DNA from: Proteiniphilum sp. X52
GTDB lineage: Bacteria > Bacteroidota > Bacteroidia > Bacteroidales > Dysgonomonadaceae
Length of the DNA: 64,000 bases
Assembly (NCBI RefSeq): GCF_003712195.1
Contig: NZ_RDSD01000006.1
Span: 1-64,000, forward strand
Reading direction: 5' to 3'
Position 1 is the first letter of the stretch. Every line of letters starts with the position of its first letter. The position numbers and the translations under genes are program-made. Below the pieces are notes generated by a model. That model searched no databases. It was not told the origin of the DNA and saw nothing but the letters and a program-made list of their open reading frames with translations. This document shows, one piece after another, positions 11,381-42,267 of this stretch.

Positions 11381-14300
11381 TTAAAACTGCATTTTTAATC
11401 CAACGGAAAATGAACGGTAGTTTGGTTCAGATCCCACCCTCAGTTCTTTTATATCCCGGTATTTTGAAACGGTGAAAAGGCCGGATCCGTCTAAAAAACA
11501 ACTGATGTTTTTCATTTGCAGCGTTTGTGCCAGGACTTTGGGAAATTCATAGGTCAATTGCGCCCGTTGCAACGTAAAATAGTCGTCTCTATACAGCCAA
11601 AAGGTAGAATTACGGAAATTATTCGTACTGGTCATCGTTGTCAGACGCGGATAAGTGGCCGTTGTTTTGGTTTCTTCCGTCCAACGGTTCAATATGTACT
11701 CCGAATATTTCTTATCTCCGTCCACCCAATAATAGTTCCCGTTTATATAAGAATCTGCCCCCTTGCGACCATTTCCTAAAGCGTAAAAAGATACATTTTT
11801 GTACGTCAGGCACAAGTGTAATCCATAAGAAAAAGGAGCCTGCCAACGGCCGATCTGAACCTCATCGTTGATGTTAATAACGCCGTCGTTGTTCTGATCC
11901 ACATATTTAATATCCCCCGGCTTTACTGTGCCGAAAGTTTGGGTGGGACTGTTGCTGATCTCTTCTTCATCCATAAACAGCCCGGCTGCAACCAATCCGA
12001 AACGGGCGTCTACAGGGCGTCCCTGACGATATTGATACGCATCGGCATATATTTCGTCTCTTCTAATAACTTCCGACGTTGTGTACAATGCATTTGCCCC
12101 CAGTACAATCCGGAAATCCCCTAATTTGCGATTGAAAGTCAATCCGATTTCCGCACCTTTGTACGCATTTTTATCAAAATTGACATAAGGAATAAATTGT
12201 GAATAGAAAGTGGGGTATATGGTTTGTGCACGGGTAACCATGTCGTAATTCAAACTGGAAAAGATATTGGCTTCCAGCGCCAGCATCTGGTGGAAGAAAC
12301 TCCCTTCAATCCCGATATTCAACTCTCTTCGTTTTTCAAACCCCATCACATTATTTTCACCCTGCACGGCAACGACGCCTTCGTTACCCCAGTTCAATTC
12401 ATTCCATTGATAACCGGTGGATTTGGCATATCGGCCGATGTAATCGAAGAATCCCCCGATTCCTGCATCGTAATTGATGATACCCCCTGTCAATCGGAGT
12501 TTCAGGTAATCGATCGCTTTCACGGATGACATAAAATCCTCGGAACTAATCATCCAGGCAAGCCCGAAAGAGGGAGAGAATGCCCTTCTTGCTTTTGGGG
12601 GCAACTTCACGGAATTGACATAGGCACTGCTAAAATCAACCATATACTTCCTGTTATAAATATAGTTTAGCCTCAGTCCGAAGTTGGCATTTTTTTTACT
12701 TTGGTAATCTCCCATCATCTTATAGCTGTTGGCGAACCCCAAGAGCGAACCCGTGAATTGGTGCACCTCATTAAATATCCTGTTATAGTCGAGCAGGCCG
12801 TAAAAACCGAACCTTCTCTGATAATACGTGCCAGAAACGGACTGGGTTCCGGGACGCGAATCATTTCCGTATTTCACCAAAGCTACTATCGAATCTCCTG
12901 TCAAATTCCAGGTGGGCTCATAGACCGAATATTCATTGGCAACGCGTTGATCATAATTGGTGAAATAATCGAAACTGATATTGGTATGAAAAGCCAATCC
13001 GTTCAGGAAATCACTTAAATCAAAGTCGATCCGGTTGTTCAGTGAAAAGTTCCGTTGTATATTTTCACTGGTGCCACCCGAATAGCCGTCGGCAATGGGG
13101 TTTGTCAAATAGGATTGCGTGCCCCCCAGCAAGTAAATTTCTCCCACATCATTTTTTCGTGATTTCAGCAAAGGTTCTGTTGAAACAATATACTTAATGG
13201 GGAGGAGAGGGGAAAACAGGTTGGGCTTTAACGTAGCCGCATTACTCCAGTAATCACCCACAGGTTCCTTGTCGTTTGAAAATACCGCCACGGCATCTAA
13301 GGAGGCTTTGATAAAAGAATTAACATTTAAATCGACATTGCCCCTTAAATTGAATCTGTTCCTGCGGCCGTTTCTTCCTTCACCAAAATTCAACAGGCTT
13401 CCCGCATACTCCCATCCCATATTGGTATAATAGGTGGCGGTATTATTACCCCCTGAAAATTCAGCCATTCCTTTTGCAAAAGGTTTATAAGATTTCAGGT
13501 AGTCGTTGGAATAATAATCGATATCCGGATAACGATAAATGTTATGTCCTTTTCTGTAGTTTTCAATCACTCTTTTTTTATATAGCGGGGTTAAACCGTC
13601 GTTCACGCGGGCTTCATTATACAATGTCATATAATCGGCCGATGACAGGTATTTAGGCAGTTGCATGGGTAGTGAGACACCGTAATAGGCCGTAACATTT
13701 ATTTTACTCTTATTGGGATTTCCTCTTTTGGTGGTAATTAAAACCACACCGTTTACCGCCTCGCTTCCGTATAACATTGCCGAATTGATGTCCTTTAACA
13801 CGCTTATCTGCTCCACTTCCGCCAAGTTTATCGTCCAGATATCACGGGGCAATCCGTCAACAATAAATAAAGCATTCCCCAATCCGCGGATATTGTTATA
13901 GCCCAGCAAACCGGGTATGCGGCCCAAGAGGGCATCGGAAAGCCATTGGGTGTTATCGTATTTGATTATATCGTCGGCCACTAAAAAAGTAGCTGAACCT
14001 ATTAGGTTGCCCTTTGGAATTCTTCCAAAAGCGATATTTACACTATCCCTTTTACTATATAAAGGAACATGAGGTTCCAACTGGAACAATTCCATTTCGG
14101 CAAATTCTCCCGCCTGAAAATAAACCGGCTCAAATGCGGGAGCTTTTATGGAGAGATCAGACTGATCCGGAACGGATATGGTGAACTTCCCCGAATCATC
14201 TGAAAAAGCGACCACCCATCCGTCATTTGCCGAGATCGTTGCTCCGCTTATGGGATTTCCGTTATTATCTTGAACAACAGCGTCAATTGTTATGTATTTG

Positions 14301-14392
14301 GTATGTTGCCTCCTTTGGGCAAAGCTTTTTCCTGTGGAACACAGCATTAAAAAAACCAATAAGGTAGATAGTATATCGTATTTTATTTTCAT
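11381..14392 (-). CDS. SusC/RagA-family TonB-dependent transporter without STN domain (third pair)
   Basis: The protein has 1003 residues with a signal peptide ending near SFAQ. An N-terminal carboxypeptidase-like domain (residues ~30-110: ITIDAVVQDNNGNPISGATIS) is followed by a plug domain (LIGSATFLVADDI to VNGVVLITTKRG) and a 22-strand-type barrel ending in phenylalanine (SVGLKMQF). Unlike the two upstream SusC genes it lacks the secretin/TonB N-terminal (STN) signalling domain, so it should not contact FecR directly. The plug is divergent from usual SusC: the standard LEEVVVVGYG stretch is not recognisable. It starts 44 bp after the preceding SusD, so it probably depends on upstream transcription. 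Confidence 0.9.
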   Translation of the reverse strand: MKIKYDILSTLLVFLMLCSTGKSFAQRRQHTKYITIDAVVQDNNGNPISGATISANDGWVVAFSDDSGKFTISVPDQSDLSIKAPAFEPVYFQAGEFAEMELFQLEPHVPLYSKRDSVNIAFGRIPKGNLIGSATFLVADDIIKYDNTQWLSDALLGRIPGLLGYNNIRGLGNALFIVDGLPRDIWTINLAEVEQISVLKDINSAMLYGSEAVNGVVLITTKRGNPNKSKINVTAYYGVSLPMQLPKYLSSADYMTLYNEARVNDGLTPLYKKRVIENYRKGHNIYRYPDIDYYSNDYLKSYKPFAKGMAEFSGGNNTATYYTNMGWEYAGSLLNFGEGRNGRRNRFNLRGNVDLNVNSFIKASLDAVAVFSNDKEPVGDYWSNAATLKPNLFSPLLPIKYIVSTEPLLKSRKNDVGEIYLLGGTQSYLTNPIADGYSGGTSENIQRNFSLNNRIDFDLSDFLNGLAFHTNISFDYFTNYDQRVANEYSVYEPTWNLTGDSIVALVKYGNDSRPGTQSVSGTYYQRRFGFYGLLDYNRIFNEVHQFTGSLLGFANSYKMMGDYQSKKNANFGLRLNYIYNRKYMVDFSSAYVNSVKLPPKARRAFSPSFGLAWMISSEDFMSSVKAIDYLKLRLTGGIINYDAGIGGFFDYIGRYAKSTGYQWNELNWGNEGVVAVQGENNVMGFEKRRELNIGIEGSFFHQMLALEANIFSSLNYDMVTRAQTIYPTFYSQFIPYVNFDKNAYKGAEIGLTFNRKLGDFRIVLGANALYTTSEVIRRDEIYADAYQYRQGRPVDARFGLVAAGLFMDEEEISNSPTQTFGTVKPGDIKYVDQNNDGVININDEVQIGRWQAPFSYGLHLCLTYKNVSFYALGNGRKGADSYINGNYYWVDGDKKYSEYILNRWTEETKTTATYPRLTTMTSTNNFRNSTFWLYRDDYFTLQRAQLTYEFPKVLAQTLQMKNISCFLDGSGLFTVSKYRDIKELRVGSEPNYRSFSVGLKMQF

Positions 14393-14436: not shown

Positions 14437-16224
14437 TTACCAGCCCGGATTTTGAGGAAATTCGGGATATAAAGTGGTAAATTTCACCTGAAACGGCAAC
14501 CAGTTGTGTTTCTTTTCAACCACCCTCGTGATCACAATCCTTTCTTGTAAATTGATTGGTTTCCCGTTCGGACCGCGGTCAAAATCAATGGCCGTTTTCT
14601 CCCTGTATTTCATCTCTCCATTCAAATTCCACCTACGTAAATCGTGAAATCGATGTGCTTCAAAAGCCAATTCCACTGCCCTTTCCCGAATAATTTCACC
14701 CATAAAGGCTTCTTTTGTTGAAGTATACCGGGCATCCAGATCCGGTAATTGTGCGCGGTTCCTGATTATATTCAACGCCTGTTCCGCAGTGAGGGAATAG
14801 TTGGGCGCTTTAGACGATGGGTTGCCATAACCTTGTAATACCGCCTCTGCGTACATCAGATAGATATCCGCCAATCGCAAATAAGGGATATAACATTGCC
14901 AACTTGCCCATTTATTATCCCAACTGTTGCATCCGATGGGACTGAACCTTTTATAGAAATACCCCGTCACACTGTTACCTACCGTGCTGCGGTATGAGCC
15001 GCCGTTGTATAATTCCGCGAATCGGACGCTGGCAGGAGGCGCTGTGCTATAAACCAGCTGGTCTCCGTCGATAATGATATCGGAATAAAAACGGGGTTCA
15101 CGCCCTGTCCACGGATCGTTCGGATTATACCCCGAATGGGGGTCATCGATGGGCAAACCGTTGGCCATGGCATAGTTTTTAATAAAATTATGCGTAGGCA
15201 CTTCTACATTTTTTTGCATTCCCCCGCCTAAAGCCACAGGAACCGTACCATTGACTGCAGACCATCTGGATCGAGAATATTCTAGAATTGCCGGATACAT
15301 GATGACTTCGCTACCGCCGGGCAAAGTCCTGTTACTGGCTGACCAAACCCAAAAGTTATCTGTCCATGTGGCCCACGGCTGTAACTTATAAGCTCCCGTT
15401 TCGTCACAGAGCTTGAGGAGTTCGGAAAAAGCATCTGCCGCTTGTTGACAAAGTTCACTATCGAATACGGCTTTTCCCGTCGATTCTTCATTCATCATCG
15501 GGCTGGCCGCATACAATAAATCTTTACCCAGATAGCCCAATGCGTGGATCTTTGTGATCCGTTGGTGGTTATTGCCTAAAGTAGGCTTCCCTGCCACCGA
15601 TTTATCCCAATCGACAGGTAACAGTTTCGCTGCCGCTTTTAAATCTTCTGCCGCTTTTAAAGCCGTCTCACGATATGACAACCGCGGCAAGCTTAAATCA
15701 TCTGTGGCGACCAATACGGTATCAATATAGGGCAGACCTCCCCAATAACGCATCAGTTCGAAATGAAACCAACCCCGGAAAAAAAGGCACTGCCCTTTGA
15801 TAAAATCCTTTTCTTCCTGCGTGGCATCCGTTAACAGGTCAAGTTTACTTAGTCCCAGATTGGCTTTCCGGATGCCGTACCAACACAAGGGCCATATTCT
15901 TTTACTCCTCGGTTCATTATCGGTATTGGCTGTTGTTCCGTAGAGCAAAGCGCTCTGATCCCAATAATTCCCCAAATCGAAAGAATAGGGATAGTTGTTC
16001 AGGGTTTCATCGGCAAAAAGATATAGATTCCAGGCTCCGGCTTTGTTGTAATCGGTAACACAATTGTACATCTCTTCTACAAATCCCTGAAAACTTGTAA
16101 AACTGCCGTAAACCTCTTTCTCCGTAATATTGGCTTCCGGTGATTTGTCCAGATAATCTTCACAGGAAGATATTATTAGCATCAATAGTAATGAATAGCT
16201 TATTTTATAGATTATGTGTTTCAT
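14437..16224 (-). CDS. SusD/RagB-family lipoprotein (second pair)
   Basis: The ATG at 16224 gives a clean lipoprotein signal (MKHIIYKISYSLLLMLIISSC); a more upstream ATG at 16251 would overlap the SusC gene. The roughly 595-residue product carries SusD hallmarks: SSCEDYLDKSPEANITEKEVY near the N-terminus, GQCLFFRGWFHFELMRYWGG, GREPRFYSDI, and RERAVELAFEAHRFHDLRRW near the C-terminus, ending in QNPGW. It should cap the adjacent SusC transporter at the surface and bind its glycan. The start lies 10 bp after the SusC stop. Confidence 0.92.
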   Translation of the reverse strand: MKHIIYKISYSLLLMLIISSCEDYLDKSPEANITEKEVYGSFTSFQGFVEEMYNCVTDYNKAGAWNLYLFADETLNNYPYSFDLGNYWDQSALLYGTTANTDNEPRSKRIWPLCWYGIRKANLGLSKLDLLTDATQEEKDFIKGQCLFFRGWFHFELMRYWGGLPYIDTVLVATDDLSLPRLSYRETALKAAEDLKAAAKLLPVDWDKSVAGKPTLGNNHQRITKIHALGYLGKDLLYAASPMMNEESTGKAVFDSELCQQAADAFSELLKLCDETGAYKLQPWATWTDNFWVWSASNRTLPGGSEVIMYPAILEYSRSRWSAVNGTVPVALGGGMQKNVEVPTHNFIKNYAMANGLPIDDPHSGYNPNDPWTGREPRFYSDIIIDGDQLVYSTAPPASVRFAELYNGGSYRSTVGNSVTGYFYKRFSPIGCNSWDNKWASWQCYIPYLRLADIYLMYAEAVLQGYGNPSSKAPNYSLTAEQALNIIRNRAQLPDLDARYTSTKEAFMGEIIRERAVELAFEAHRFHDLRRWNLNGEMKYREKTAIDFDRGPNGKPINLQERIVITRVVEKKHNWLPFQVKFTTLYPEFPQNPGW

Positions 16225-16234
16225 AGGAAGTCTT

Positions 16235-19200
16235 TTAAAAATTAATATCAATACCCAAATTTATCCTTTTTACCGTTGGATAGGTGCCGTAGCTCGCAGA
16301 TCCTCCTGCCCATGCGGCTTCCCTGTCATCGGGAAGTCTCGACCAGAAAAACAGGTTGTTCCCATTTAAATAAACTCTTAATGAAGATAATCCACTGTTT
16401 TTTAATAATTTATTTGCTTTGTCAAATGTGTAAGCGATTTCAACCGTTTTGAGCCGGATAAATGACGCATCATACAAGTAATAATCCCCGATGCTAAAGA
16501 GAGAAGTATTGTCTTTATTTCCAGTTTTCCATCTCGGCAGGAACGATGTAGCATTTTGATTGTCTTTTGACCAGTAATCCTGCACGTGAGAAAATACCAC
16601 ATTATCGTAAAGCAAAAAATTTAACAAAGGTACTGAGCGAGAAACGTTGTTCACACCATAAAATTGGGCCATGGCACTGAATCCCTTGTAATTCAATCCC
16701 AAAGAAAGGTTATAGGTGTTTTCCGGCACCTCGGGATAACCGTAGGGAACAACATCTTCCGAGTTTCGGATGTATCCGTCGGCATTGAAATCGAGAAGAT
16801 TATAAAATCCGGGCATTTTCAGTAGGTCATTCGTCTCCATCGGCACACTGGCATACACCTCATCCCAATTGTTGTAAAACTCCGTTCTTAACAGGCTTCT
16901 GCTTTGGCCGATAGGGTATCCCTGGGCTTTCAAATAATCGGGTAACAAAAGCGGGTCGTCTTTAAAGATTACCTTGTTCCGGATATGGGTGAATGACAGC
17001 GTTGTCCAGAGATGAAAGTCGTTGCTGATTCTTTTGTTAAACTTGGTTTCAACCTCATACCCTGTAGAGTTTACCCGTCCGGAATTGGTAGTAGGCGGCG
17101 TGCCTCCATAAAAAGGGGGTACACTGCTTAAGTTACCCGCCAGTAGGATATCGGTTCTTTTCTCACTAAAATAGTCAATATCTATGGCCAGTAAATTATT
17201 GAAGATACCCAACTCAACACCGTAATTTTGTTTTTTCGCTTTTTCCCAGTGAATGTCGGAGTTGCCGATAGAAGCCTCCTTATACCATGTATAGGGACTT
17301 GCGCCTCTCGGCGATTGGTTTAACCGGGCAAAACCGCCGTAGGAATATTGGGAAGCGTACAGCCATCTTCCTCCACTTACCCTGTCATCCCCGACGTATC
17401 CCAAACTGTAGCGAAGTTTTAATTTATTGATCCACTGCGGTTTGAAAAACTTCTCGTTAGAAACATACCATCCGAGCGCCATGGACGGGAAGAAATCAAA
17501 ACGGTATCCCGGCCCGAACTGCTCGGAACCGTTATATGCTCCGTTAAATTCCAAAAAGAACCGGGTGTCGTAATCGTAGGTGGCTCTCGATACCCAATCT
17601 TCCCGATAATGTTTAAACTCGTTTCCGGAAGCGTATTCTTCCCGTTTCATCACTCCCATAGCGCCTACGCTATGGAGTCCGAATTTACGCGCATAGTTGA
17701 TTTGCAATTGATAAACCATTCTTCTGCTCAAAGCTCCGGAAGGTGCTTCATCGTAGAGTTCCCAAGGTTTCAATGCCCAGTCGAATTGATTGTATCCCAG
17801 GATCGGCAGGTTTTGGATATATTCGTTTGGATCCTGATCCGGCCCGGTATATAATTCCGAGTTCACATATTTTTCCGGGGTATTACTGTTCCAGTCCGTA
17901 GGACGGATATGGTTGGCCAAATCCCAAATGCCTCCGGTCGTGGAAAGGGTATTGTCGTAATAAAAAGAGGCCTTGGCAACCAACCCTTTGGTAATGAATT
18001 CGAGATTTTGCTCCACCTCAAAATCGGACAATAACGAAGTTGTACGGATTTGTTTCAATCCCTGGTTATAAACTACGGCTACCGGGTTTATTTTTCCCGT
18101 CAACAACGACCAGCCCCAACGACCGTCCGAATATTGCGGGAGATAAATGTCAGGCGGCATCCCGTAAACGGCTGCCCACATACTTCCATCATAGCCATAG
18201 TTTTTATTTTTCTGGCTGTAATAGCCGGACAGGTTCATTTTTAAAGTAGTTGAGCCGGTTATCTGAAAATCGAGGTTGCTTCTGAAATTAAACCGGTCAA
18301 AATCATAATTCGGGTCATAATTTTTAAAATTCTCATAATCTTTAAACATATCTCCTTCGTGCAGGTAGGAGAGGGAGCCGAAGTAACGGACCAGGTTGTT
18401 TCCACCAGACACATTCAACGTGGCTTTGTGTGAAAATCCGACATCTTTGAACATCGCTTTCTCCCAATCGACGTTGGGATATATTTCAACGTATTCGGGT
18501 GACTGGGGTAATTGATATCTTTTGGCTATTTCAAAAGGGATATAATCCTGCCAGGAAGGTTCGTTCAGTGAAACTTCCCGTTCAATGGCTTCGTTCCGGG
18601 TAAGGATAGCCTGGTAGGAATCCATTGTTTTCGGGACTTTGGATAACTGCATGGCCGTGGTATTGTAAGAAAAAGAGATATTGGGTTTTCCTCTTTCTCC
18701 TCTCTTGGTAGTTATTAAGATTACCCCGTTTGCGCCCTTTACGCCAAAAACCGCAGTGGCAGAGGCATCTTTCAATATGGATACATTTTGTACTTCATTG
18801 ACATCCACATTGCTCATATCCCTTTCAACACCATCTACCAGGATCAAAGGCTGACCCCCGTTCCACGTGTTTTGACCGCGGATAAAAATGGATGTGGCGC
18901 TCGACCCGTCATTTGTGCCGCCCGGTTCTCCTGATGAGGTGATCGTGACCAAGCCGGGCAATTGTCCGCTCAGAGCCTCCCTTAAGTCGGCAACATTTCC
19001 CCTTCTTATCAACTCCTTGGATGATGCCTGGGAAATGGCACCCACCACACTCTCTTTTCGTTGTACACCGTATCCCACCGCAACAACTTCTTCAAGGCCT
19101 ATGGTCTCTTCTTTCATTGTTATGTTGATCGTGGTTCTGTTTCCAACGGTGATCTCCTGCGATTGCATGCCGACAAACGAAAAAATGAGAACGGGAGTAC

Positions 19201-19756
19201 CGGGAATATTGTGTAATATATAATTACCGTCAACATCGGTAGTAGTTCCCATTGATGTTCCTTTTACCACGATGGTTACTCCCGGTAGAGGTTCTCCGTG
19301 TTCGTCGATCACCTTTCCTCTTATTGTTTTTCCTTGCTGTTCCGGTTCAGCGATGGAAACTTCTTTTATGTCTGTTGTAATTGGTTTGGGATTCTTATAT
19401 ACCGAAACCTGTCGCCCTATCGTTTTATAAGCTAGGTCGGTGCCGGAGAAGATATTGTCCAGGATGGTTTGAATGCTCTCTTTCTTTGCCCGCAACGATA
19501 TTTTTCGATTCAATTCTCTCGATGCTTCGTCAGTAATAAGAAAAACATAGTCGCTTGTCTTTTCGATTTCGGAAATCGCCTTTTTCATACTGACGTTGCT
19601 CAGTTCCAACGAAAGTTTTTTTTGCTGCGAAAAAACGTCTCCCGCGGTAATGGTAAAAAAGCAGAAAAAAAGCATTAAAAATGAAATCTTCATGATTTTT
19701 ATGGTTCTGTTGCACTTTTTACATCTACTTTGGTCAGGTTTAAATTTTTCTTCCAT
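16235..19756 (-). CDS. SusC/RagA-family TonB-dependent transporter with STN signalling domain (second pair)
   Basis: The 1173-residue protein has an unusually long basic n-region (MEEKFKPDQSRCKKCNR) before the hydrophobic signal core; translation from the internal ATG at 19693 is an alternative. Residues ~45-115 form an STN domain (LSLELSNVSMKKAISEIEK). A carboxypeptidase-like domain (~145-220, TIRGKVIDEHGEPLPGVTI), the LEEVVAVGYG motif, plug and barrel ending in GIDINF follow. STN domains pass a substrate signal to FecR anti-sigma factors, so this transporter is probably both importer and sensor. A candidate antisense RNA starts over its initiation codon. The N-terminal DNA is similar to that of the other STN-type SusC at 24877, which suggests duplication. 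Confidence 0.92.
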   Translation of the reverse strand: MEEKFKPDQSRCKKCNRTIKIMKISFLMLFFCFFTITAGDVFSQQKKLSLELSNVSMKKAISEIEKTSDYVFLITDEASRELNRKISLRAKKESIQTILDNIFSGTDLAYKTIGRQVSVYKNPKPITTDIKEVSIAEPEQQGKTIRGKVIDEHGEPLPGVTIVVKGTSMGTTTDVDGNYILHNIPGTPVLIFSFVGMQSQEITVGNRTTINITMKEETIGLEEVVAVGYGVQRKESVVGAISQASSKELIRRGNVADLREALSGQLPGLVTITSSGEPGGTNDGSSATSIFIRGQNTWNGGQPLILVDGVERDMSNVDVNEVQNVSILKDASATAVFGVKGANGVILITTKRGERGKPNISFSYNTTAMQLSKVPKTMDSYQAILTRNEAIEREVSLNEPSWQDYIPFEIAKRYQLPQSPEYVEIYPNVDWEKAMFKDVGFSHKATLNVSGGNNLVRYFGSLSYLHEGDMFKDYENFKNYDPNYDFDRFNFRSNLDFQITGSTTLKMNLSGYYSQKNKNYGYDGSMWAAVYGMPPDIYLPQYSDGRWGWSLLTGKINPVAVVYNQGLKQIRTTSLLSDFEVEQNLEFITKGLVAKASFYYDNTLSTTGGIWDLANHIRPTDWNSNTPEKYVNSELYTGPDQDPNEYIQNLPILGYNQFDWALKPWELYDEAPSGALSRRMVYQLQINYARKFGLHSVGAMGVMKREEYASGNEFKHYREDWVSRATYDYDTRFFLEFNGAYNGSEQFGPGYRFDFFPSMALGWYVSNEKFFKPQWINKLKLRYSLGYVGDDRVSGGRWLYASQYSYGGFARLNQSPRGASPYTWYKEASIGNSDIHWEKAKKQNYGVELGIFNNLLAIDIDYFSEKRTDILLAGNLSSVPPFYGGTPPTTNSGRVNSTGYEVETKFNKRISNDFHLWTTLSFTHIRNKVIFKDDPLLLPDYLKAQGYPIGQSRSLLRTEFYNNWDEVYASVPMETNDLLKMPGFYNLLDFNADGYIRNSEDVVPYGYPEVPENTYNLSLGLNYKGFSAMAQFYGVNNVSRSVPLLNFLLYDNVVFSHVQDYWSKDNQNATSFLPRWKTGNKDNTSLFSIGDYYLYDASFIRLKTVEIAYTFDKANKLLKNSGLSSLRVYLNGNNLFFWSRLPDDREAAWAGGSASYGTYPTVKRINLGIDINF

Positions 19757-19763
19757 ACATTTG
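19756..19763 (+). promoter_or_regulatory. Antisense -7 promoter element overlapping a susC start codon
   Basis: TACATTTG on the plus strand is a perfect match to the Bacteroidota -7 consensus TAnnTTTG. It overlaps the complement of the susC ATG and is kept in the paralogous locus at 24877. I see no convincing -33 TTTG at the usual spacing; one lies 23 bp upstream. Confidence 0.55.
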
Positions 19764-19769
19764 TAATGA

Positions 19770-19862
19770 ATTTTTAGTTTAGGTAATTTATTTTCTGAGG
19801 ATTATCCGTGAATTAAATTTTCACCCGATCGGGCGATGTGCCACCATTGCCCGATCTTTTTG
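19770..19862 (+). ncRNA. Candidate cis-antisense small RNA opposite the susC leader (copy 1)
   Basis: A TACATTTG -7 element (19756-19763) predicts a start near 19770, and a hairpin with T tract ends near 19862, giving an RNA of about 90 nt. It is complementary to the susC leader between SusD (stop 19885) and SusC (start 19756). The same unit occurs at 24891-24976. PULs of Bacteroides fragilis carry small antisense RNAs of the DonS type at this position, which repress the susC operon; assigning this one to that class is inference. The exact 5' end is estimated from the promoter motif. Confidence 0.6.
19827..19861 (+). terminator. Plus-strand hairpin terminator of candidate antisense RNA, copy 1
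   Basis: The 12-bp stem GATCGGGCGATG (19827-19838) pairs with CATTGCCCGATC (19845-19856) with one G-U wobble and a 6-nt loop, followed by five T. On the minus strand the wobble becomes an A-C mismatch and no U tract follows, so the plus strand is the functional direction. Confidence 0.7.
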
Positions 19863-19884
19863 TTCCTTTTCTTATTTATTCAAG

Positions 19885-21405
19885 TTATTGTTCAACATCC
19901 CACCATACACGGGTTGTGAAAGCATCAGCACCCATAGAAGTTATCGCTTCAGCAAGATTGGACGAATTGACGGAGTATTCACTCGAGGGATATCTGATTC
20001 TTCTCGGTATTTGTCCGTTTGATTCATTTCCGGTGTAGTTAACCGGAGTCAATACCGGATACCCGGTACGTCTCCAATTAGCATAGCTTTCGTAAAAATT
20101 CATCCAGGTCGCCAGCCAGTATTGCTCGCCGATCTGCTTGAGCCCGACGGAGGAATGGTATGGATTGGCCGCGAGGTATGCATTCACTGCGGCATCATTA
20201 ACGGTCAACGACGGATCATATAGCGTGAACATTTGCATGGCTGCCTTTACTCCTTTATCATAATGAGACTTGGCATCGGTTACATTTCCCCAACCTCGTT
20301 CGGCTGCCTCAGCCAGCATCAACTCCACTTCCGCATAGGTCATATAGATCAATGGAGCTCCCAAATTAACTAAAATGGGGTTAACATCGCTATAGATGTT
20401 CAGGTCGAGACTCTCATCGGCACCAAGCCCTTCGAAAGCTTTTATCGTGATATGATCGTACCCGTTGGGCATGCCGTGATGAACCGTGTTTGCGCTACCC
20501 TTTTCAAACATTACATCTATCCGTGGGTCGTTCGTTGCGAGCATAAAATCTATAAGCGTCTTACTGATCTTTTCGCCCCAATCTGCTTCGTGAAAAGGCC
20601 AACTGTTTGGGTTTTGGTTATATTCCCGGCTACCGTTTTCATTGCGCGGAACAAATGCGATATCATCGTTTCCGGTCATCACTCCTCCTGCGACGGCTTT
20701 CTGAACCCACCCGGCGGCGTTAGTAGGATCTACCTTCGACATACGCATCCCCAGTCTCAACATCATGGAGTAACCGAGTTTTTTCCATTTGGCAATATCG
20801 CCGTTATAAATCAGATCTGATTCTCCCCAGGTCGGTTTGGACGCGTCAAAAGCGGCAGCAGCCTCTTCCAACTCATTCAGCATATCGGCGTAGATGCTCT
20901 GCTGGGTGTCGTACTTGGGCGTGTAATTCTGTTCCAAATACCCGAGCCCGGACTCGGAATAAGGCACATCACCGTAAAGATCCGTAATAACATGAAAAAC
21001 AACTGCCCGCCAAATCCGTGCCATGGATAAATTGTTCACCATTTCCGGGTCATCTTCCATATTGTGAATAAGCATCGCCAATTCTTTGACAGCCTGAGGG
21101 TAAGACTCATCAAAGTAAGCAGAACAACATGTGTTGCTATACAGGTACTTGTCACCAACCCCATAATCCCCGGTCGACAGGTTGGCAAATTGCTGAACAA
21201 AAGTGCTGCACAAAAACAGATTAACACGTTTCGCCACATATTGTCTTCCGCCTGTTACTGTAAGAATATAACTAAACAAATAGCCATTATCCATTTGGGA
21301 GGAAGTTTTGGGATTCACGTTTAAATTTTTAAGATCTTCCGTGCATGCTGTTAGAAATATTGTACCGGTGACAAGTATGATAAAAATTCTTTTGAATCGT
21401 TTCAT
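19885..21405 (-). CDS. SusD-like lipoprotein (first pair)
   Basis: The 506-residue product begins with a lipoprotein signal (MKRFKRIFIILVTGTIFLTAC) and continues ...EDLKNLNVNPKTSSQ, which is the start typical of the shorter SusD-like subgroup. It carries MARIWRAVVFHVITDLYGDVPYSE, LIYMTYAEVELMLAEAAERG and a C-terminal NWRRTGYPVL motif, all seen in that subgroup. It is paired with the STN-type SusC upstream, 31 bp away. It should bind the transported glycan or glycopeptide at the surface. The downstream 128-bp gap contains the antisense RNA unit and separates this pair from the second pair. Confidence 0.9.
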   Translation of the reverse strand: MKRFKRIFIILVTGTIFLTACTEDLKNLNVNPKTSSQMDNGYLFSYILTVTGGRQYVAKRVNLFLCSTFVQQFANLSTGDYGVGDKYLYSNTCCSAYFDESYPQAVKELAMLIHNMEDDPEMVNNLSMARIWRAVVFHVITDLYGDVPYSESGLGYLEQNYTPKYDTQQSIYADMLNELEEAAAAFDASKPTWGESDLIYNGDIAKWKKLGYSMMLRLGMRMSKVDPTNAAGWVQKAVAGGVMTGNDDIAFVPRNENGSREYNQNPNSWPFHEADWGEKISKTLIDFMLATNDPRIDVMFEKGSANTVHHGMPNGYDHITIKAFEGLGADESLDLNIYSDVNPILVNLGAPLIYMTYAEVELMLAEAAERGWGNVTDAKSHYDKGVKAAMQMFTLYDPSLTVNDAAVNAYLAANPYHSSVGLKQIGEQYWLATWMNFYESYANWRRTGYPVLTPVNYTGNESNGQIPRRIRYPSSEYSVNSSNLAEAITSMGADAFTTRVWWDVEQ

Positions 21406-21436: not shown

Positions 21437-24400
21437 TTAAAATTTAATACTCAGGTTTATGCCGAAACTTCTTGTCGAGGGCACGCCAAATCCTTCCAAT
21501 CCCTGGGCATTGCCGGCAATATAAGTCGACTCCGGATCGATATTGGCTGTTTTACGCCATAGAAGCAGCAGATTTCGCCCCACAAGGGACACGTTCACAC
21601 CGGTAAACGGCGTTTCACTCAGCAGCCTTGAAGGAAAATTATAGCCCAGTACCAATTGCCTCAGTTTGACAAACGATGCGTCCTGTACAAATTCTTCCGT
21701 TATCTGGAAAAGCCTGGCGTAATAAGTGCGGATATCTTCCGGGGCAATATGATAAGTGAACGGATTCCCCTCTTCGTTTACACCGGAAATATCCAGCCCC
21801 GATTCCCGGCCTTCCAATGTGTTTTTGTGGAATCCCCGGGTATAACCGTAAGCATCGCTTGCCGCATAAATATGTCCTCCGGCTTTCATGTCGATCAGAA
21901 AATCCATATAGAAATTCTTATATGTAAAAGAGTTGTTCAGGCCCATTGTCATTGGACTGATACCGGTACCCAGCGGATATAACTCCGTTGTCCTTACAGG
22001 TCGTCCCGATGCGTCATACACCCGTACTCCCTGATCGTTAGTCTTGAATTTATACCCGTAGATCTGGCTGTAAGGCTCTCCGACAATATTGGCCAGGAAA
22101 GCGCTCTGTGTCCGGCTTTCGGCCATGGTAAGCGTTTTTATGTCTCCGGACAGGCGGATCACTTTGTTTTTGTTGTAGGCAAAATTGAGAGAAGCATTCC
22201 ATTCGAAGTTGCGCCGCCTTATAATGCCTGAATTGATCAACAACTCAATGCCCTTATTGGTGACTTCACCGACATTGACCCTGGCAGAAGAGTAGCCGGA
22301 TGCCCTGGATATTGTGGCGGACAATATATCGTTTTCCGTCTTTTTGCTGTAATAGGTGAAATCTATACCCAGCCGGTTGTTAAACAGCCTCACGTCGTAT
22401 CCCAATTCGTATTCCGTACTCTTATAAGGTTTTAAATCGGTATTCGGTACCGTTGATTGTGATATATAACCTGCCGGTTGCCCCTGGTATCCTCCTCCCA
22501 GCAAACTGTAGCTTAGCGAGGTCTGGTAGGGGCTGTCGACTCCGCCACCCACCTGCGCTAAGGATAACCGTAATTTGCCGAAAGTCATCCAGTGGGGCAT
22601 TTTAAACGTATCGGAGAATATCCAGCTTAGACTTGCGGAAGGGTACAAAACGCTTTTACCGTCGAGCGTGGAAAACCAGTCCTGCCTACCGGTCACGTTC
22701 AGGAAAAGATAATCTTTGTATGAAATTTCCGCGGAACCCAGGAGGGAGTTAACACCGTAATTACTTACACTGCTACCATAGCCTTGATTGGCGATATTGG
22801 ACACATCATGAAAGAAAGGGATGTTAAAATCATTTCCCCCAATACTCGCATAGTCGTACTTGTGGCGCATGTAATTGCCGCCAACAAATCCGCTGAATTT
22901 ATAATTGTTAAATTCACGATCCCATCCCAACATGACATCGGCGTTTTCCTCGCTGATCACGAATCTTTCTTCGGTCATTTGACCCCGGGGTATGTAACCG
23001 GTTCCATAGGGAGTGAGATAGGTTCTCGAATAATGATACCAGTCTCTCCCGATACGGCCCTGGAGATAGAGCCAGTCGGTGAAATCGTATTTTAAAACCA
23101 TTGAGCCGATAATCCTGTTCCTTTTGCTGCTGCGCCTGTATTGATAGGCAACCCAATAGGGATTGTTCACATATACGTTCCCGTTGAACTGCAGTTCCGT
23201 TCCCTCTTCGTTTGCTCCGAATTTATCGGTTGTTCCCTTCAGTGTTTCGACATCGATACTGGGGGGTAGGGAAAAAAGCGTGTAGTTTACATTTCCGGGC
23301 GAATCCGATATTTCACTCCGGTGGCTTACGTTCTCGATGATGTAATCGACCTTTGCCGACGCGCTGAATTTTTTCCCATACTGCCCGTTCGCGTTTAGGC
23401 TGAAGTTCTTTCGGTCCATATTATTCTCCGGAACGATCCCCTTGTTTTCAAGGTCGGAAACGGTAAAACGAAACGCGTGCATCTCGTTTCCTCCGGTCAG
23501 GGTTAAGGTGTTGGTCCAGGTGGAACCGGTACGATAGAATTTTTTCAAATTGTTGCCGACGTAGGAATACGGCCTGGATACACCGTCGAATTGGATGACA
23601 CTACTTCCGTCCAGTTTTGCCCCATAACTGTAAAGTCCGTAATCCAATGCTTCCGTTTGACTGGTCGGTTTTGCTCCGTTAAATCCATGTCCGTACTCTT
23701 TCTGGTAATCCGTAAAATCAATCATATTTTCCAGTACGTAGTTTGTAGAGAACTCAATACCAATCCCTTTCCTTTTCTGTCCTTTTTTAGTGGTGATCAG
23801 GATAACCCCGTTGGATGCCCGTGAACCGTAAAGGGCGGCTGCGGCGTTTCCCTTTAATATGCTGATATTTTCTACATCTTCTGGATTCATCAAACTGGAC
23901 GTGCCATCCCCCCAATCACTGCCTCCCCATGTTCCGGGAACCCCCAATTGGGTATTGTCGATGGGGATACCATCAATAACGTACAACGGCTGGTTACTGG
24001 CCGACAACGAGGTGTTTCCCCTGATAAGGATTTGGCTTGAACCCGAAGCTCCCGTAGCGATGTTGCTGACATTTACCCCCGCTACTTTTCCGGCCAATGC
24101 GTCGGCAATGTTGATTTCCCTTGCCTGGATTAAATCGCTTCCCGATACTTCTGTAACTGAATAACCGAGCGCTTTTTTTCTTTTTTCGATCCCGAAACCG
24201 GTTACCACCACCTCTTCAAGGGCCTTTACATCTTCCTGTAAAACAATGTTGAAGCTCCTTTTTCCTGCCGTGGAAATATCTTGCGACAAATACCCTATAT
24301 ATGAAATATGAAGGATCGCATTTTCTTCTACACTCAACGTAAAATTTCCGTCTATATCGGTTATGGTACCGTTAGCGGTACCCTTTTCCAAAATATTGGC

Positions 24401-24877
24401 TCCTATAACCGGTACTCCTTGCTCATCAGTAATCTTTCCGGTGACCGTTTTTTTTTGTTGTTCGATCTCCTCTTTTTTTATTTCATTTTTTTCTATCGCC
24501 TTCAGCGAGGCGCTTTTATACACCGATACCTGCCGCTCCACCACGGTATATCCCAACTCCCTGTCTTTCAGAAGTTTTTCCAGAATTGCGGGGATGGATT
24601 CTTTATTGGCATGGAGGCTGGTTTTCTTATTGAGTTCGAGTTGCGCCTCATCAGTAATAAGAGACACATCGTCGCTGGTTTTCTCAATTTCTGAGATAGC
24701 CTTTTTGATGGTGACGTTTCTCAAATCTAACGAACGTTGCGTTTGCTGGGGATGCACATTCTCCCCCGTTAAAGAAAACAGACAGAAAAAAAATAATAAA
24801 GTTAAAACCTTCATGATTTTTAGAGCTCTGTTGCATTTTTTGGATACAATCAGGCTAAATTCAAATTTTTCTTTCAT
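21437..24877 (-). CDS. SusC/RagA-family TonB-dependent transporter with STN signalling domain (first pair)
   Basis: The 1146-residue protein begins with a long basic n-region (MKEKFEFSLIVSKKCNR) before the hydrophobic core; the internal ATG at 24814 is an alternative start. An STN domain (LDLRNVTIKKAISEIEK, ~50-115) is followed by a Lys/Glu-rich linker, a carboxypeptidase-like domain (KTVTGKITDEQGVPVIGANIL), the LEEVVVTGFG motif, plug domain, and barrel ending SFGINLSIKF. It is the first gene after fecR, so it is the most likely partner of the ECF sigma/FecR signalling pair. An antisense RNA candidate overlaps its leader and start codon. Confidence 0.93.
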   Translation of the reverse strand: MKEKFEFSLIVSKKCNRALKIMKVLTLLFFFCLFSLTGENVHPQQTQRSLDLRNVTIKKAISEIEKTSDDVSLITDEAQLELNKKTSLHANKESIPAILEKLLKDRELGYTVVERQVSVYKSASLKAIEKNEIKKEEIEQQKKTVTGKITDEQGVPVIGANILEKGTANGTITDIDGNFTLSVEENAILHISYIGYLSQDISTAGKRSFNIVLQEDVKALEEVVVTGFGIEKRKKALGYSVTEVSGSDLIQAREINIADALAGKVAGVNVSNIATGASGSSQILIRGNTSLSASNQPLYVIDGIPIDNTQLGVPGTWGGSDWGDGTSSLMNPEDVENISILKGNAAAALYGSRASNGVILITTKKGQKRKGIGIEFSTNYVLENMIDFTDYQKEYGHGFNGAKPTSQTEALDYGLYSYGAKLDGSSVIQFDGVSRPYSYVGNNLKKFYRTGSTWTNTLTLTGGNEMHAFRFTVSDLENKGIVPENNMDRKNFSLNANGQYGKKFSASAKVDYIIENVSHRSEISDSPGNVNYTLFSLPPSIDVETLKGTTDKFGANEEGTELQFNGNVYVNNPYWVAYQYRRSSKRNRIIGSMVLKYDFTDWLYLQGRIGRDWYHYSRTYLTPYGTGYIPRGQMTEERFVISEENADVMLGWDREFNNYKFSGFVGGNYMRHKYDYASIGGNDFNIPFFHDVSNIANQGYGSSVSNYGVNSLLGSAEISYKDYLFLNVTGRQDWFSTLDGKSVLYPSASLSWIFSDTFKMPHWMTFGKLRLSLAQVGGGVDSPYQTSLSYSLLGGGYQGQPAGYISQSTVPNTDLKPYKSTEYELGYDVRLFNNRLGIDFTYYSKKTENDILSATISRASGYSSARVNVGEVTNKGIELLINSGIIRRRNFEWNASLNFAYNKNKVIRLSGDIKTLTMAESRTQSAFLANIVGEPYSQIYGYKFKTNDQGVRVYDASGRPVRTTELYPLGTGISPMTMGLNNSFTYKNFYMDFLIDMKAGGHIYAASDAYGYTRGFHKNTLEGRESGLDISGVNEEGNPFTYHIAPEDIRTYYARLFQITEEFVQDASFVKLRQLVLGYNFPSRLLSETPFTGVNVSLVGRNLLLLWRKTANIDPESTYIAGNAQGLEGFGVPSTRSFGINLSIKF

Positions 24878-24884
24878 ACATTTG
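24877..24884 (+). promoter_or_regulatory. Antisense -7 promoter element overlapping a susC start codon (copy 2)
   Basis: TACATTTG on the plus strand matches TAnnTTTG exactly and overlaps the complement of the susC ATG, as at 19756. No -33 TTTG is visible at standard spacing. Confidence 0.55.
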
Positions 24885-24890
24885 TAATGA

Positions 24891-24976
24891 ATGTTAGTCT
24901 ACATAATTAATTAAGCGTTAGTTGTAGATTAATTATCGTATGATCGGGCAATGTGGCAGCATTGTCCGATTTTCTT
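24891..24976 (+). ncRNA. Candidate cis-antisense small RNA opposite the susC leader (copy 2)
   Basis: The -7 motif at 24877-24884 and the hairpin at 24942-24971 with following T-rich run define a unit of about 85 nt complementary to the leader between fecR and susC. The middle part differs from copy 1, while promoter, stem and spacing are kept. This position, between anti-sigma gene and susC, is where DonS-type antisense RNAs lie in Bacteroides fragilis PULs. The 5' end is estimated. Confidence 0.6.
24942..24976 (+). terminator. Plus-strand hairpin terminator of candidate antisense RNA, copy 2
   Basis: GATCGGGCAATG (24942-24953) pairs with CATTGTCCGATT (24960-24971) using two G-U wobbles, with a 6-nt loop and a T-rich tail. 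On the minus strand the same positions would be A-C mismatches. Confidence 0.65.
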
Positions 24977-25070
24977 TTCATTCGGTACTTCTCTCATAGG
25001 CAATTATTTTTCTACATGTGTTTCAAATAATGCTTGCCGGAATAAGGAACAGTCTTTTTTTCAGAAGCAT

Positions 25071-26264
25071 TTATTTTTTAGTGATATGGATGATATTGTT
25101 TTCTCTTTGGTAAACAGTGGATGAGAGTACGGAAACGGAGGCCATGACGCTGTCCAAGTTGTTCGAAAGGAACAGTTTCCCGGAACAGGTCTTATCGTTC
25201 AGCTTTATCTCCGGACTGCTTTCGAATTGAACATTGTAATATCTCCCTATTCTCTTCAGTATTTCAGACATAGGCGTTCCGTTAAATTCCAATATACCTC
25301 TTGTCCAACTGATATATTCCGATACATTTACAGATTCCTTTGTCATGTCATCTCTCGTAATCTCTATTTTCTCGTTGGGCAGCAATTCGGCCGTAAGCCT
25401 GCCGGCCGTTTCTATTTTTACTTTTCCTTCCACCAATACGACAGTTTTTCTACTGTCATCATGGTAAGCCGAAATATTAAAGGAAGTACCCTGTACATAA
25501 ATATCCATATCATGTGCATGTACAATAAACGGGATTTCCGGATTATGTGCAACATTGATAAAGATCTCACCATTCACGCGTATTTCTCTCCTACTTCCCG
25601 TAAATTCTGAGGGAAAATCGAGTTGAGTCCCTGAATTCAACCAAACCTCTGTTCCGTCAGAAAGGGTCAGATTTGTTCGTTTACCGTAAGGAACGACCAA
25701 TTTATTGAACTCTGCTGTAGCCAACAACAATTCTTTCCGGGAATCAGTACTATCCGTTACCAGTGCTTTTCCATCTCCGGTGAGACCAATATGGGATTTG
25801 GGGGCGATATTAATTGTCTTTCCTCCCGAAATAAGGTGTATTTCCTCTCCGGGAAGCGCTTCTCCGACAATAATCTCAGTTTCAGAGTTACTGTTCGGTC
25901 CGGGATCTTCTTTACGGGTAACAAATAAGACAGACAAGGCACCTATTACCAAAACTGCGACTGCCGAACTAATTCTCTTCACCAATCTACGTCTCTTATG
26001 CCTCTGTATATCTACCCAAACAGCCTGGTAAATATTCTTTTTATCCTTCTCCGATAATTGATCCCGATTAATTTTTACCGTATCAAACTGTATTACTGCT
26101 TCATGGAACACTTTTTTCAGATGCGGGTGTCCGATCTGAAAAGAGTTCCAATATTCATCTAATTCCTTCGTTTGAAAGAGCCTCCATCTAATAAAATCTT
26201 CGTCATGAAGGAAGTCATGAACATCTTGAAACAGCCGGTTTTTATTATCCTCTTTATTATTCAC
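25071..26264 (-). CDS. FecR-family anti-sigma factor
   Basis: The 397-residue protein starts at a GTG (26264). Residues ~1-90 form a cytoplasmic N-terminal region that should hold the sigma factor. A basic RRRLVKR stretch precedes a single membrane segment (~95-115). The periplasmic part contains the FecR core (LVVPYGKRTNLTLSDGTEVWLNSGTQLDFPSEF region) and a C-terminal DUF4974-like domain (YNVQFESSPEIKLNDKTCSGKLFL) that contacts the SusC STN domain in related systems. It lies 170 bp after the ECF sigma gene and 193 bp before the STN-type susC, the standard order of trans-envelope signalling operons controlling host-glycan PULs. Confidence 0.92.
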   Translation of the reverse strand: MNNKEDNKNRLFQDVHDFLHDEDFIRWRLFQTKELDEYWNSFQIGHPHLKKVFHEAVIQFDTVKINRDQLSEKDKKNIYQAVWVDIQRHKRRRLVKRISSAVAVLVIGALSVLFVTRKEDPGPNSNSETEIIVGEALPGEEIHLISGGKTINIAPKSHIGLTGDGKALVTDSTDSRKELLLATAEFNKLVVPYGKRTNLTLSDGTEVWLNSGTQLDFPSEFTGSRREIRVNGEIFINVAHNPEIPFIVHAHDMDIYVQGTSFNISAYHDDSRKTVVLVEGKVKIETAGRLTAELLPNEKIEITRDDMTKESVNVSEYISWTRGILEFNGTPMSEILKRIGRYYNVQFESSPEIKLNDKTCSGKLFLSNNLDSVMASVSVLSSTVYQRENNIIHITKK

Positions 26265-26434
26265 AGTACCCCTTTTTATAGGGATGACGGATCTCTTTTA
26301 TTTTCGTGGACATAAATAAATAAAAATCAAAAAAATTAACATTTTCAAGAATAAAAAAGAAATAATTTTATCGATTATTCCATAGAAATATACTAATTAT
26401 ATAGTGGTTATGGAAATATTATCACTGCTTGCTG

Positions 26435-27037
26435 TTACAAAAACCGCTGAGACAAAAACAGCAGGAACAATATGCTTAGTCCTTCCGGAAAATCTTCCTG
26501 GGAAACTTGTTGCCGAAGTTTTTCCATCGTCCGGTACAATAATTTACGAGCTGATTCTTCACGAATATTAAGGATGTCTGCTATTTCCTTATGTTCCAGC
26601 CCTATCATATATTTCAGATAAACCACTTCACGTTGGTTGGCCGTGAGTCCATCCAGGAGCGAGGAGACTTTTTCCTTTAATATTTTTGCCTTTTCACTGT
26701 CTATTATATTGTCCAGCACGGTTACATTTACAGTAAAAGATTCGGTAATGACATCGAGGGTTTCCTCCCTTATATTTTTTCTGGATAGATCTATCAAACG
26801 GTATTTGAACGATTTAAAAATATAAGCGGTGATATTTTTTATATGGCTTAAATTGTTCCTGGATATATAGAGTTTATAGAATATGTCCTGTATGGCGTCT
26901 TTACACGTCTCCTTTTGAAAACCCAGGCTGATTCCATATGAATACAAATCATCCACATGGCTGTTATAAATAAGGGAGAAAGAGGGTTCATCTCCCTTTT
27001 CCACAAAGTTCCTCCAATTTAAATCAATAGAGACCAT
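26435..27037 (-). CDS. ECF-type RNA polymerase sigma factor
   Basis: The 200-residue protein has a sigma-70 region 2 (SFSLIYNSHVDDLYSYGISLG to AIQDIFYKLYISRNNL) and a region 4 helix-turn-helix (LTANQREVVYLKYMIGLEHKEIADILNI, then ESARKLLYRTMEKLR). It is the size expected for the Bacteroidota ECF subfamily paired with FecR. It is the first gene of the PUL regulon and is held by the FecR product until the SusC STN domain signals substrate. The C-terminus ends in a hydrophobic tail (LSILFLLFLSQRFL), which is unusual for a soluble sigma factor and could aid membrane proximity, though this is speculation. Confidence 0.93.
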   Translation of the reverse strand: MVSIDLNWRNFVEKGDEPSFSLIYNSHVDDLYSYGISLGFQKETCKDAIQDIFYKLYISRNNLSHIKNITAYIFKSFKYRLIDLSRKNIREETLDVITESFTVNVTVLDNIIDSEKAKILKEKVSSLLDGLTANQREVVYLKYMIGLEHKEIADILNIREESARKLLYRTMEKLRQQVSQEDFPEGLSILFLLFLSQRFL

Positions 27038-27139: not shown

Positions 27140-27172
27140 AAAAACCGTACCCGGTAAAAATACCGGATACGG
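27140..27172 (-). terminator. Rho-independent terminator of the CxxC TonB receptor gene
   Basis: CCGTACCCGGTA (27145-27156) and TACCGGATACGG (27161-27172) form a 12-bp stem with a G-U wobble on the minus strand and a 4-nt loop. A run of five U follows in the minus direction. Confidence 0.85.
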
Positions 27173-41889: not shown

Positions 41890-41897
41890 TACTTTTG
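41890..41897 (+). promoter_or_regulatory. -7 promoter element for the riboswitch-btuB transcript
   Basis: TACTTTTG matches TAnnTTTG exactly. It predicts a start near 41904, just at the 5' edge of the riboswitch. Confidence 0.65.
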
Positions 41898-41903
41898 CAC
41901 CGC

Positions 41904-42120
41904 TTTTCGGGTATAAAGGAATTCGGTAGTTTGCCTGTACGCAAAGAAGCCGAAGCTGTACCCGCAGCCGTATGTTCTCTATGGCTAGACTATTCCAGAT
42001 GTTTTGGAAATAGTTTCGCTGACAAGGTTCTCCGACGCGGAAAACGCGAAAGTCACTGTCCCGGTAATCGGGGTGGGAAGGCAACGGATAACCGGGAACG
42101 AGCCGGAAGACCTGCCTGAA
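41904..42120 (+). promoter_or_regulatory. Cobalamin (B12) riboswitch controlling btuB
   Basis: Recognisable parts of the cobalamin aptamer appear in the right order. These are AAAGGAATTCGGT followed by CCGAAGCTGTACCCGCAGC (~41926-41968), a variable arm, the B12-box-like AAGTCACTGTCC (~42050), GTGGGAAGGC (~42073) and GAGCCGGAAGACCTGCC (~42100-42116). It lies downstream of a -7 promoter and 150 bp upstream of the BtuB-like start. An inverted repeat TTCCGATT (42168-42175) / AATCGGAA (42192-42199) in the gap could be the expression platform. Bound adenosylcobalamin would switch off the receptor gene. Confidence 0.88.
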
Positions 42121-42267
42121 AGCATCAACCATCCAAGCTTTCGGGATAAAAGCAGCGTTGAGACTATTTCCGATTTCCCCTATTTCCCACCAATCGGAAT
42201 TTCACAACACACTCTCCCTTGAAAGTTTATGGTTCAAACAAATGTTTAACTGTAAATTTTTTCAACA

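Follow-up and report, generated by a model that had tools for sequence, protein, structure and literature searches.

A candidate DonS-type antisense RNA gene before an operon-internal susC in a PUL of Proteiniphilum sp. X52

Within the window analyzed here (the whole stretch of 64,000 nucleotides from Proteiniphilum sp. X52, positions 1 to 64,000 of contig NZ_RDSD01000006.1), positions 19756-19861 of the plus strand probably form a cis-antisense RNA gene of the DonS kind that serves as a brake on susC2 and the genes downstream of it and that has outlived sigma control. In the mechanism we propose, transcription would begin at a promoter of the housekeeping type, its -7 box overlapping the susC2 start codon by one base, and would yield a two-hairpin RNA of about 93 nt with an intrinsic terminator at its end. 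This RNA would be complementary to the susD1-susC2 intergenic mRNA as far as a point some 12 nt ahead of the ATG. The partner of this RNA would most likely be operon mRNA from the head promoter before susC1, and pairing would block ribosome access to susC2 and/or trigger cleavage, with the result that susC2 and later genes would be lowered relative to susC1D1. The antisense gene would have arrived with the susC2 PUL, which would have lost its own ECF sigma-FecR head and kept the antisense gene. For this gene, referred to as copy 2 (copy 1 being the one before susC1), we infer transcription, pairing in vivo, repression and an uneven expression of both susCD pairs.

The operon lies on the minus strand in the order ECF sigma, FecR, susC1, susD1, susC2, susD2, susC3, susD3, DUF5627, DUF5107 and GH123-like. 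Pfam matches identify an ECF-type sigma factor (26435-27037) and a FecR-type anti-sigma factor (25071-26264) at the operon head, the STN-type susC1 (21437-24877), susD1 (SusD-like_2, 19885-21405), susC2, an STN-type TonB-dependent receptor with plug and CarboxypepD matches (16235-19756), and susD2 (SusD_RagB, 14437-16251); these are followed by susC3 (11381-14392), which has no STN match, and susD3 (9611-11368). The STN domain of susC2 scored 27.4 bits in the Pfam search, just below the cut-off of 28.4, and 32.4 bits in the genome search. The gap of 128 nt between susD1 and susC2 (19757-19884) is almost wholly taken up by the antisense gene, which targets the susC2 leader, and its T tract is 23 nt away from the stop codon of the neighboring susD1. 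The original prediction of a DonS-type regulator between two susCD pairs thus agrees with the anatomy and position of copy 2, and the placement between anti-sigma gene and susC that it cited for this type does not apply, as copy 2 follows susD1. It also suggested that the downstream pairs could be tuned separately, which copy 2 may do. A strong terminator-like hairpin also separates the ECF sigma gene from a TonB receptor gene (27256-29673); it lies at 27145-27172 of the minus strand.

The anatomy of copy 2 is established. A perfect plus-strand TAnnTTTG box overlapping the complement of the susC2 ATG had been predicted and is indeed present at 19756-19763 (TACATTTG); the overlap is a single base, the first T of the box (19756) standing opposite the A of the ATG, so that this -7-type box, the putative antisense promoter, is locked to the start codon. 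The predicted succession of about 60 nt, a stem and a T tract was likewise found, with a spacer of 63 nt from the box to the stem-loop GATCGGGCGATG-TGCCAC-CATTGCCCGATC, which has 12 pairs (7 G-C) and is followed by TTTTTG; hairpin (19827-19856) and T tract (19857-19861) together make up an intrinsic terminator at 19827-19861 of the plus strand. In line with the claim that no protein gene on the plus strand could use this terminator, no plus-strand ORF of at least 100 aa was found between 19224 and 20451. Transcription from sigma-ABfr promoters starts about 5-8 nt past the -7 box, and the RNA of copy 2 would therefore overlap the leader up to a point some 12 nt short of the ATG and leave the start codon uncovered. 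An RNA over both leader and start codon had been expected; the leader part stands, and the start codon falls inside the promoter box and outside the transcript. Predicted antisense RNA 2 extends over 19769-19861 of the plus strand (about 93 nt, with the 5’ end estimated from the box and the 3’ end at the T tract) and folds a 5’ hairpin at 19773-19817, which corresponds to consensus helix 1 described below. Since its complementarity to the leader begins some 12 nt ahead of the ATG, it should cover the ribosome landing region on operon mRNA from the head promoter.

Copy 1 has the same organization, with a box TACATTTG at 24877-24884 (plus strand) locked to the susC1 ATG and a predicted antisense RNA 1 at 24890-24977 of the plus strand whose terminator hairpin occupies 24942-24971. 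Predicted RNAs 1 and 2 each consist of a 5’ hairpin and a terminator hairpin, with z of about -5, and each folds better than its complement. The cognate duplexes have predicted energies of -155 and -171 kcal/mol and the cross pairs between the copies -64 and -62; each RNA should therefore act upon its own leader. Pairing in trans between copies 1 and 2 was considered and set aside as weak, the longest common run being 8 nt.

Neither element is informative by itself, because both occur at chance level. TAnnTTTG is found 48 times in the 64-kb window against 51.5 expected, with no enrichment, and loose terminator matches between 8000 and 27500 number 22 against 20.4 expected; the box alone was accordingly dropped as evidence. 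A strict terminator scan of both strands of the 64 kb (at least 11 contiguous pairs, at least 5 G-C, and a T tract) returned four hairpins, two of which are the antisense hairpins of both STN-type susC leaders. The composite of box, hairpin and T tract is above chance. A -33 TTTG element is not conserved, occurring at a gap of 23 in 6 of 49 distinct upstream sequences.

Which strand folds is established by base pairing in copy 2 and in its homologs. The original observation that the stem pairs fully on the plus strand only was correct: on the sense strand the single G-U pair of the copy 2 stem turns into an A-C mismatch, and the fold of 19770-19864 is stronger on the plus strand (-29.0 kcal/mol, z -5.0) than on the minus strand (-24.7 kcal/mol, z -3.9). 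At E ≤0.01, BLAST with the copy 1 leader found matches, some of them short, in 21 of 41 genomes. Alignment A2 comprises 19 of the 30 BLAST loci, picked for having both a perfect box and the plus-strand stem, and among these selected sequences 96.7% of 398 cells are paired, compared with 30-43% in slid controls, and seven pairs show double changes. Consensus helix 1 (the 5’ hairpin) has 93.5% of its cells paired and consensus helix 2 (the terminator) 99.1%, with double changes in six pairs of the latter; G-U cells at paired columns outnumber A-C cells 62 to 0 in these 19 sequences. Alignment A3 contains the 18 strongest BLAST matches (E ≤1.1e-7), taken without structure selection, with pair columns taken from A2, and here the ratio of G-U to A-C is 53 to 2, which shows that the folded strand is the plus strand, antisense to susC. 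In copy 2 and its two ortholog leaders, the plus strand retains all 12 terminator pairs, double changes included.

Conservation of the gene is also established. A first covariance model, R1, bore the terminator pairs only and was replaced by R2, which has both helices, was built without the box and gives rough E-values; copies 1 and 2, both members of its training set, match it at 24887-24980 (92.4 bits) and 19766-19865 (69.1 bits). Failure of homologous loci to keep the box and the plus-strand pairing had been named beforehand as a result that would speak against the prediction, and many relatives keep them. Within the genus, R2 matches occur in 33 of 39 genomes; across the order, counting the genome under study, they occur in 16 of 119. 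The box was checked at 37 loci of this genome and the genus, among the more than 80 R2 matches listed, and is at the expected place in 16 of the 21 that lie outside the training set (two of them after offset correction); it is missing at L073, L076, L077, L094 and L106. Among the order loci, 12 of 19 have the box and 11 of these are locked to CAT; the figure of 12 is on the low side, since L213 has a locked box one base outside the scan window. Three order loci with neither box nor ORF start (L209, L215 and L216) are probably chance hits; L219 has a box but neither lock nor ORF start, and the best order match, L202, is locked, yet the ORF that follows it (239 aa) matches nothing in Pfam.

The antisense arrangement is linked to STN-type susC genes, and this link too is established. 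The 25 STN-type receptors of the genome represent all matches at E ≤0.001, three of them below the Pfam cut-off, and were compared with 22 STN-less SusC controls, obtained from the 30 of 56 SusC matches that had a locus, the other 26 having none, minus 8 that proved to be STN-type. The box was locked to the ATG in 12/25 STN-type as opposed to 1/22 STN-less leaders (Fisher p 0.0009, with leaders partly related), an antisense terminator was found in 11/25 versus 1/22 (Fisher p 0.002, with the same relatedness), and both occurred together in 8/25 versus 1/22. The sole STN-less SusC with both has a long N-terminal extension. By the same scan, 13 of the 25 STN-type leaders have no locked box and 14 no terminator, and the two features co-occur (8 of 12 locked and 3 of 13 unlocked STN leaders have the terminator; p 0.036). 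Terminators on the sense strand were found in none of the 25 STN-type, 22 STN-less and 28 order-sample SusC leaders. This order sample of STN genes, taken regardless of RNA (29 loci, one without an ATG), yielded 2/28 locked boxes, 4/28 antisense terminators and 1/28 with both, so that outside the genus the arrangement is by no means general. Among SusC2 relatives within the genus, box and terminator are both present in all five distinct STN-type genes, and neither is present in the 18 genes with an available leader that begin past the STN domain, as judged by alignment start and not by Pfam. Three sequences were left out of this clade: L179 (whose contig begins inside the gene), L186 (partial N terminus; locked, no terminator) and L191.

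Most of these genes adjoin an anti-sigma gene. Upstream of the 25 STN genes there is FecR in 19 cases, SusD in 2 (copy 2 and L021) and no match in 4, one of them at a contig end; one of the 22 STN-less SusC genes, L135, is also downstream of FecR. Across 59 loci, 56 of them R2 matches and 3 BLAST homologs, the upstream gene is FecR at 49 and SusD at one, copy 2, and 9 have no match; of these nine, some represent additional detached cases and others chance hits. That copy 2 is the sole detached case was ruled out by four antisense leaders at which no adjacent FecR was found: L018 of this genome, which has box and terminator and no FecR found upstream; L074, whose susC has no STN match and lies beside a LacI-type gene; L100, which follows a sugar-isomerase-like gene and has a shifted susC start; and L055, with a susC without STN match and no ORF of at least 60 aa in about 580 nt upstream. 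On contig C27 of the same genome, L201 has two STN-type susC genes in tandem, both with a locked box; the leader of the first is cut by the contig end, and the second is downstream of susD and lacks a terminator.

A recurrent motif, GCCTATG, accompanies FecR-linked leaders on the sense strand. In copy 1 it lies at 24995-25001 (minus strand), just past the antisense terminator, and it was found in 12/25 STN leaders (in L028 at an odd place), 2/22 STN-less leaders, 3/28 of the order sample and 10/12 aligned leaders. Leaders with the motif include L010, L011, L013-L015, L018, L019, L026, L027, L031, L032, L149, L154 and L160; by eye, a stop codon follows the ATG of the motif within 1-4 codons in 9 of these 14 leaders. 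Our guess is that GCCTATG is part of the sense promoter or the leader start; the region is possibly a sigma-dependent start region or a tiny leader ORF. The motif is absent, as CATAGGC/GCCTATG, from the susD1-susC2 gap, and it is also absent from G043a, a leader that does follow FecR, so that the missing motif in copy 2 says little about whether a sense promoter was lost there.

The synteny history of copy 2 is established from related genomes. In G012 and G043 (the latter and L064 being one genome, counted once), susC2-susD2-susC3-susD3-DUF5627-DUF5107 is headed by an ECF and a FecR of its own, sharing just 39-41% identity with the ones in this operon. The ECF-FecR-susC1 head of the window is that of another PUL type, found in G007 beside the same neighboring receptor, with ECF 86% and FecR 78% identical. 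Given the own, dissimilar heads in G012 and G043 and the G007-type head here, two PULs appear to have been fused, the second bringing the antisense gene and not the sigma head, and the position of copy 2 is best explained as a trace of this event, an explanation that the original prediction did not include. By eye, similarity of copy 2 to the leaders of the second PUL type stops at about the T tract. L021 (contig C27), the other susD-preceded STN susC of the genome, has a locked box and no terminator, indicating that retention after detachment is not general. In a separate comparison with 21437-27037 of the window, L193 and L196 match in ECF-FecR and the first 370 SusC1 residues, but not over the greater part of the barrel or in SusD; judging from these alignments, the signaling head of SusC seems to have been exchanged between transporters.

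Several other explanations were weighed against the antisense brake. The gene may be real and act mainly by transcription, with plus-strand polymerase colliding with polymerase arriving from susD1 and the RNA itself of minor importance. The antisense promoter does face straight into oncoming operon transcription, and the mechanism by which DonS represses is described as unknown in the passages cited (PMC11697453), but both hairpins are under base-pair conservation in homologs and pure collision needs no 5’ hairpin. Furthermore, copy 2 has no recognizable adjoining sense promoter (insofar as the absence of GCCTATG, a motif whose role is a guess, can tell), which makes interference with initiation unlikely there, and we regard collision as a rather improbable main mode of action. 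An unlikely alternative is that copy 2 persists from the PUL fusion as a passive relic and, whether or not it is transcribed, has no effect at its internal site: the synteny has the leader arriving with the PUL, and L021, the other STN susC preceded by susD, has no terminator. Against it stand the intact box and the 12 intact terminator pairs of copy 2, whose differences from the orthologs are paired changes, possibly made before the fusion. Two points count against the antisense brake itself: some antisense transcripts may stem from random promoters and have no function, as noted in the literature (PMC7366714), and the kept sequence could also reflect a recent fusion.

Two further readings assign the sequence to the sense strand. 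The hairpin might act within the mRNA, stabilizing or attenuating it as an intercistronic element at the susD1-susC2 junction, since the sense strand folds there too (8 uninterrupted G-C-rich pairs, z -3.9). We consider this most improbable in light of the G-U to A-C ratio of 53:2 in favor of the plus strand, the count of 0/25 STN leaders with a sense-strand terminator, and the location of 49/59 homologous loci downstream of fecR and not of susD. The box TACATTTG might instead be a sense translation-start context (CAAATGTATG) and no promoter. Its lock to the ATG would suit such a role, as would the four of 12 locked STN leaders that failed the terminator scan (L013, L021, L030 and L022), two of which have particular circumstances, L013 having a terminator with one mismatch and L022 a leader cut by the contig end. 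However, the near-absence of the box from STN-less SusC (1/22) and the association of lock and terminator (8/12 vs 3/13, p 0.036) make a start context very unlikely.

If copy 2 is an antisense brake, its location offers a comparison that most loci do not. At 49/59 loci the antisense gene has the anti-sigma gene as its neighbor, and presumably the sense promoter as well, so that their effects are hard to separate; copy 2, inside the operon and remote from both the anti-sigma gene and the putative sense promoter, together with a normal copy 1, constitutes a natural test of post-transcriptional action versus promoter interference. We tentatively propose, as a possibility somewhat short of probable, that in the fused PULs one ECF-FecR head drives both, that the kept RNA 2 makes expression of the second and later susCD pairs uneven by acting on read-through mRNA, and that a start-codon-locked antisense promoter with a two-hairpin RNA may be a recurrent post-transcriptional module of Bacteroidales STN-type susC genes. 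The start-codon lock and the two-hairpin model also provide a means to find such RNAs from sequence.

Known systems provide close parallels. DonS belongs to a family of 78-128 nt RNAs directed against susC homologs, according to the sections cited (PMC7366714), and antisense RNAs are described, in the portions of the literature cited, for 15 PULs in B. fragilis and as 32 PUL-associated RNAs in B. thetaiotaomicron (PMC7366714, PMC10994844, PMC11697453, PMC9723704, PMC11501099, PMC12596196). FopS RNAs are about 65-70 nt long, have a terminator at their end and hold down translation of susC by acting close to its start codon; they come from 14 loci, act in trans with a common 5’ seed and are deposited in Rfam (PMC11697453). 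With Rfam 15 at gathering score, neither copy was matched, the only match in the window being a cobalamin riboswitch (41892-42133, plus strand; RF00174, 40 bits), and at E ≤5 over 19650-19950 there were five chance-level matches, none of them FopS, in a release that may lack FopS. The RNAs predicted here resemble FopS in being short, terminator-ended and directed at the susC start region, and differ from the trans-acting FopS in that their predicted pairing is cis and copy-specific. They are closer to DonS and the PUL cis-antisense RNAs, with which they share a short RNA against a susC homolog, a TAnnTTTG-type box and an ECF sigma/anti-sigma operon head, and, as with the DonS family of B. fragilis and B. 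thetaiotaomicron, several such leaders occur in this genome. Copy 2 fits the DonS kind by its anatomy: it is antisense to the susC2 leader within the PUL, has its own promoter box by sequence, and its predicted length of about 93 nt is inside the family range. Unlike the DonS type, it lies inside the operon after susD1, without adjoining FecR or recurrent sense motif. No operon-internal PUL antisense RNA after loss of the sigma head was found in a search of literature excerpts that did not include the founding DonS paper. What is new is this operon-internal place after sigma-head loss, the kind of switch itself being already known.
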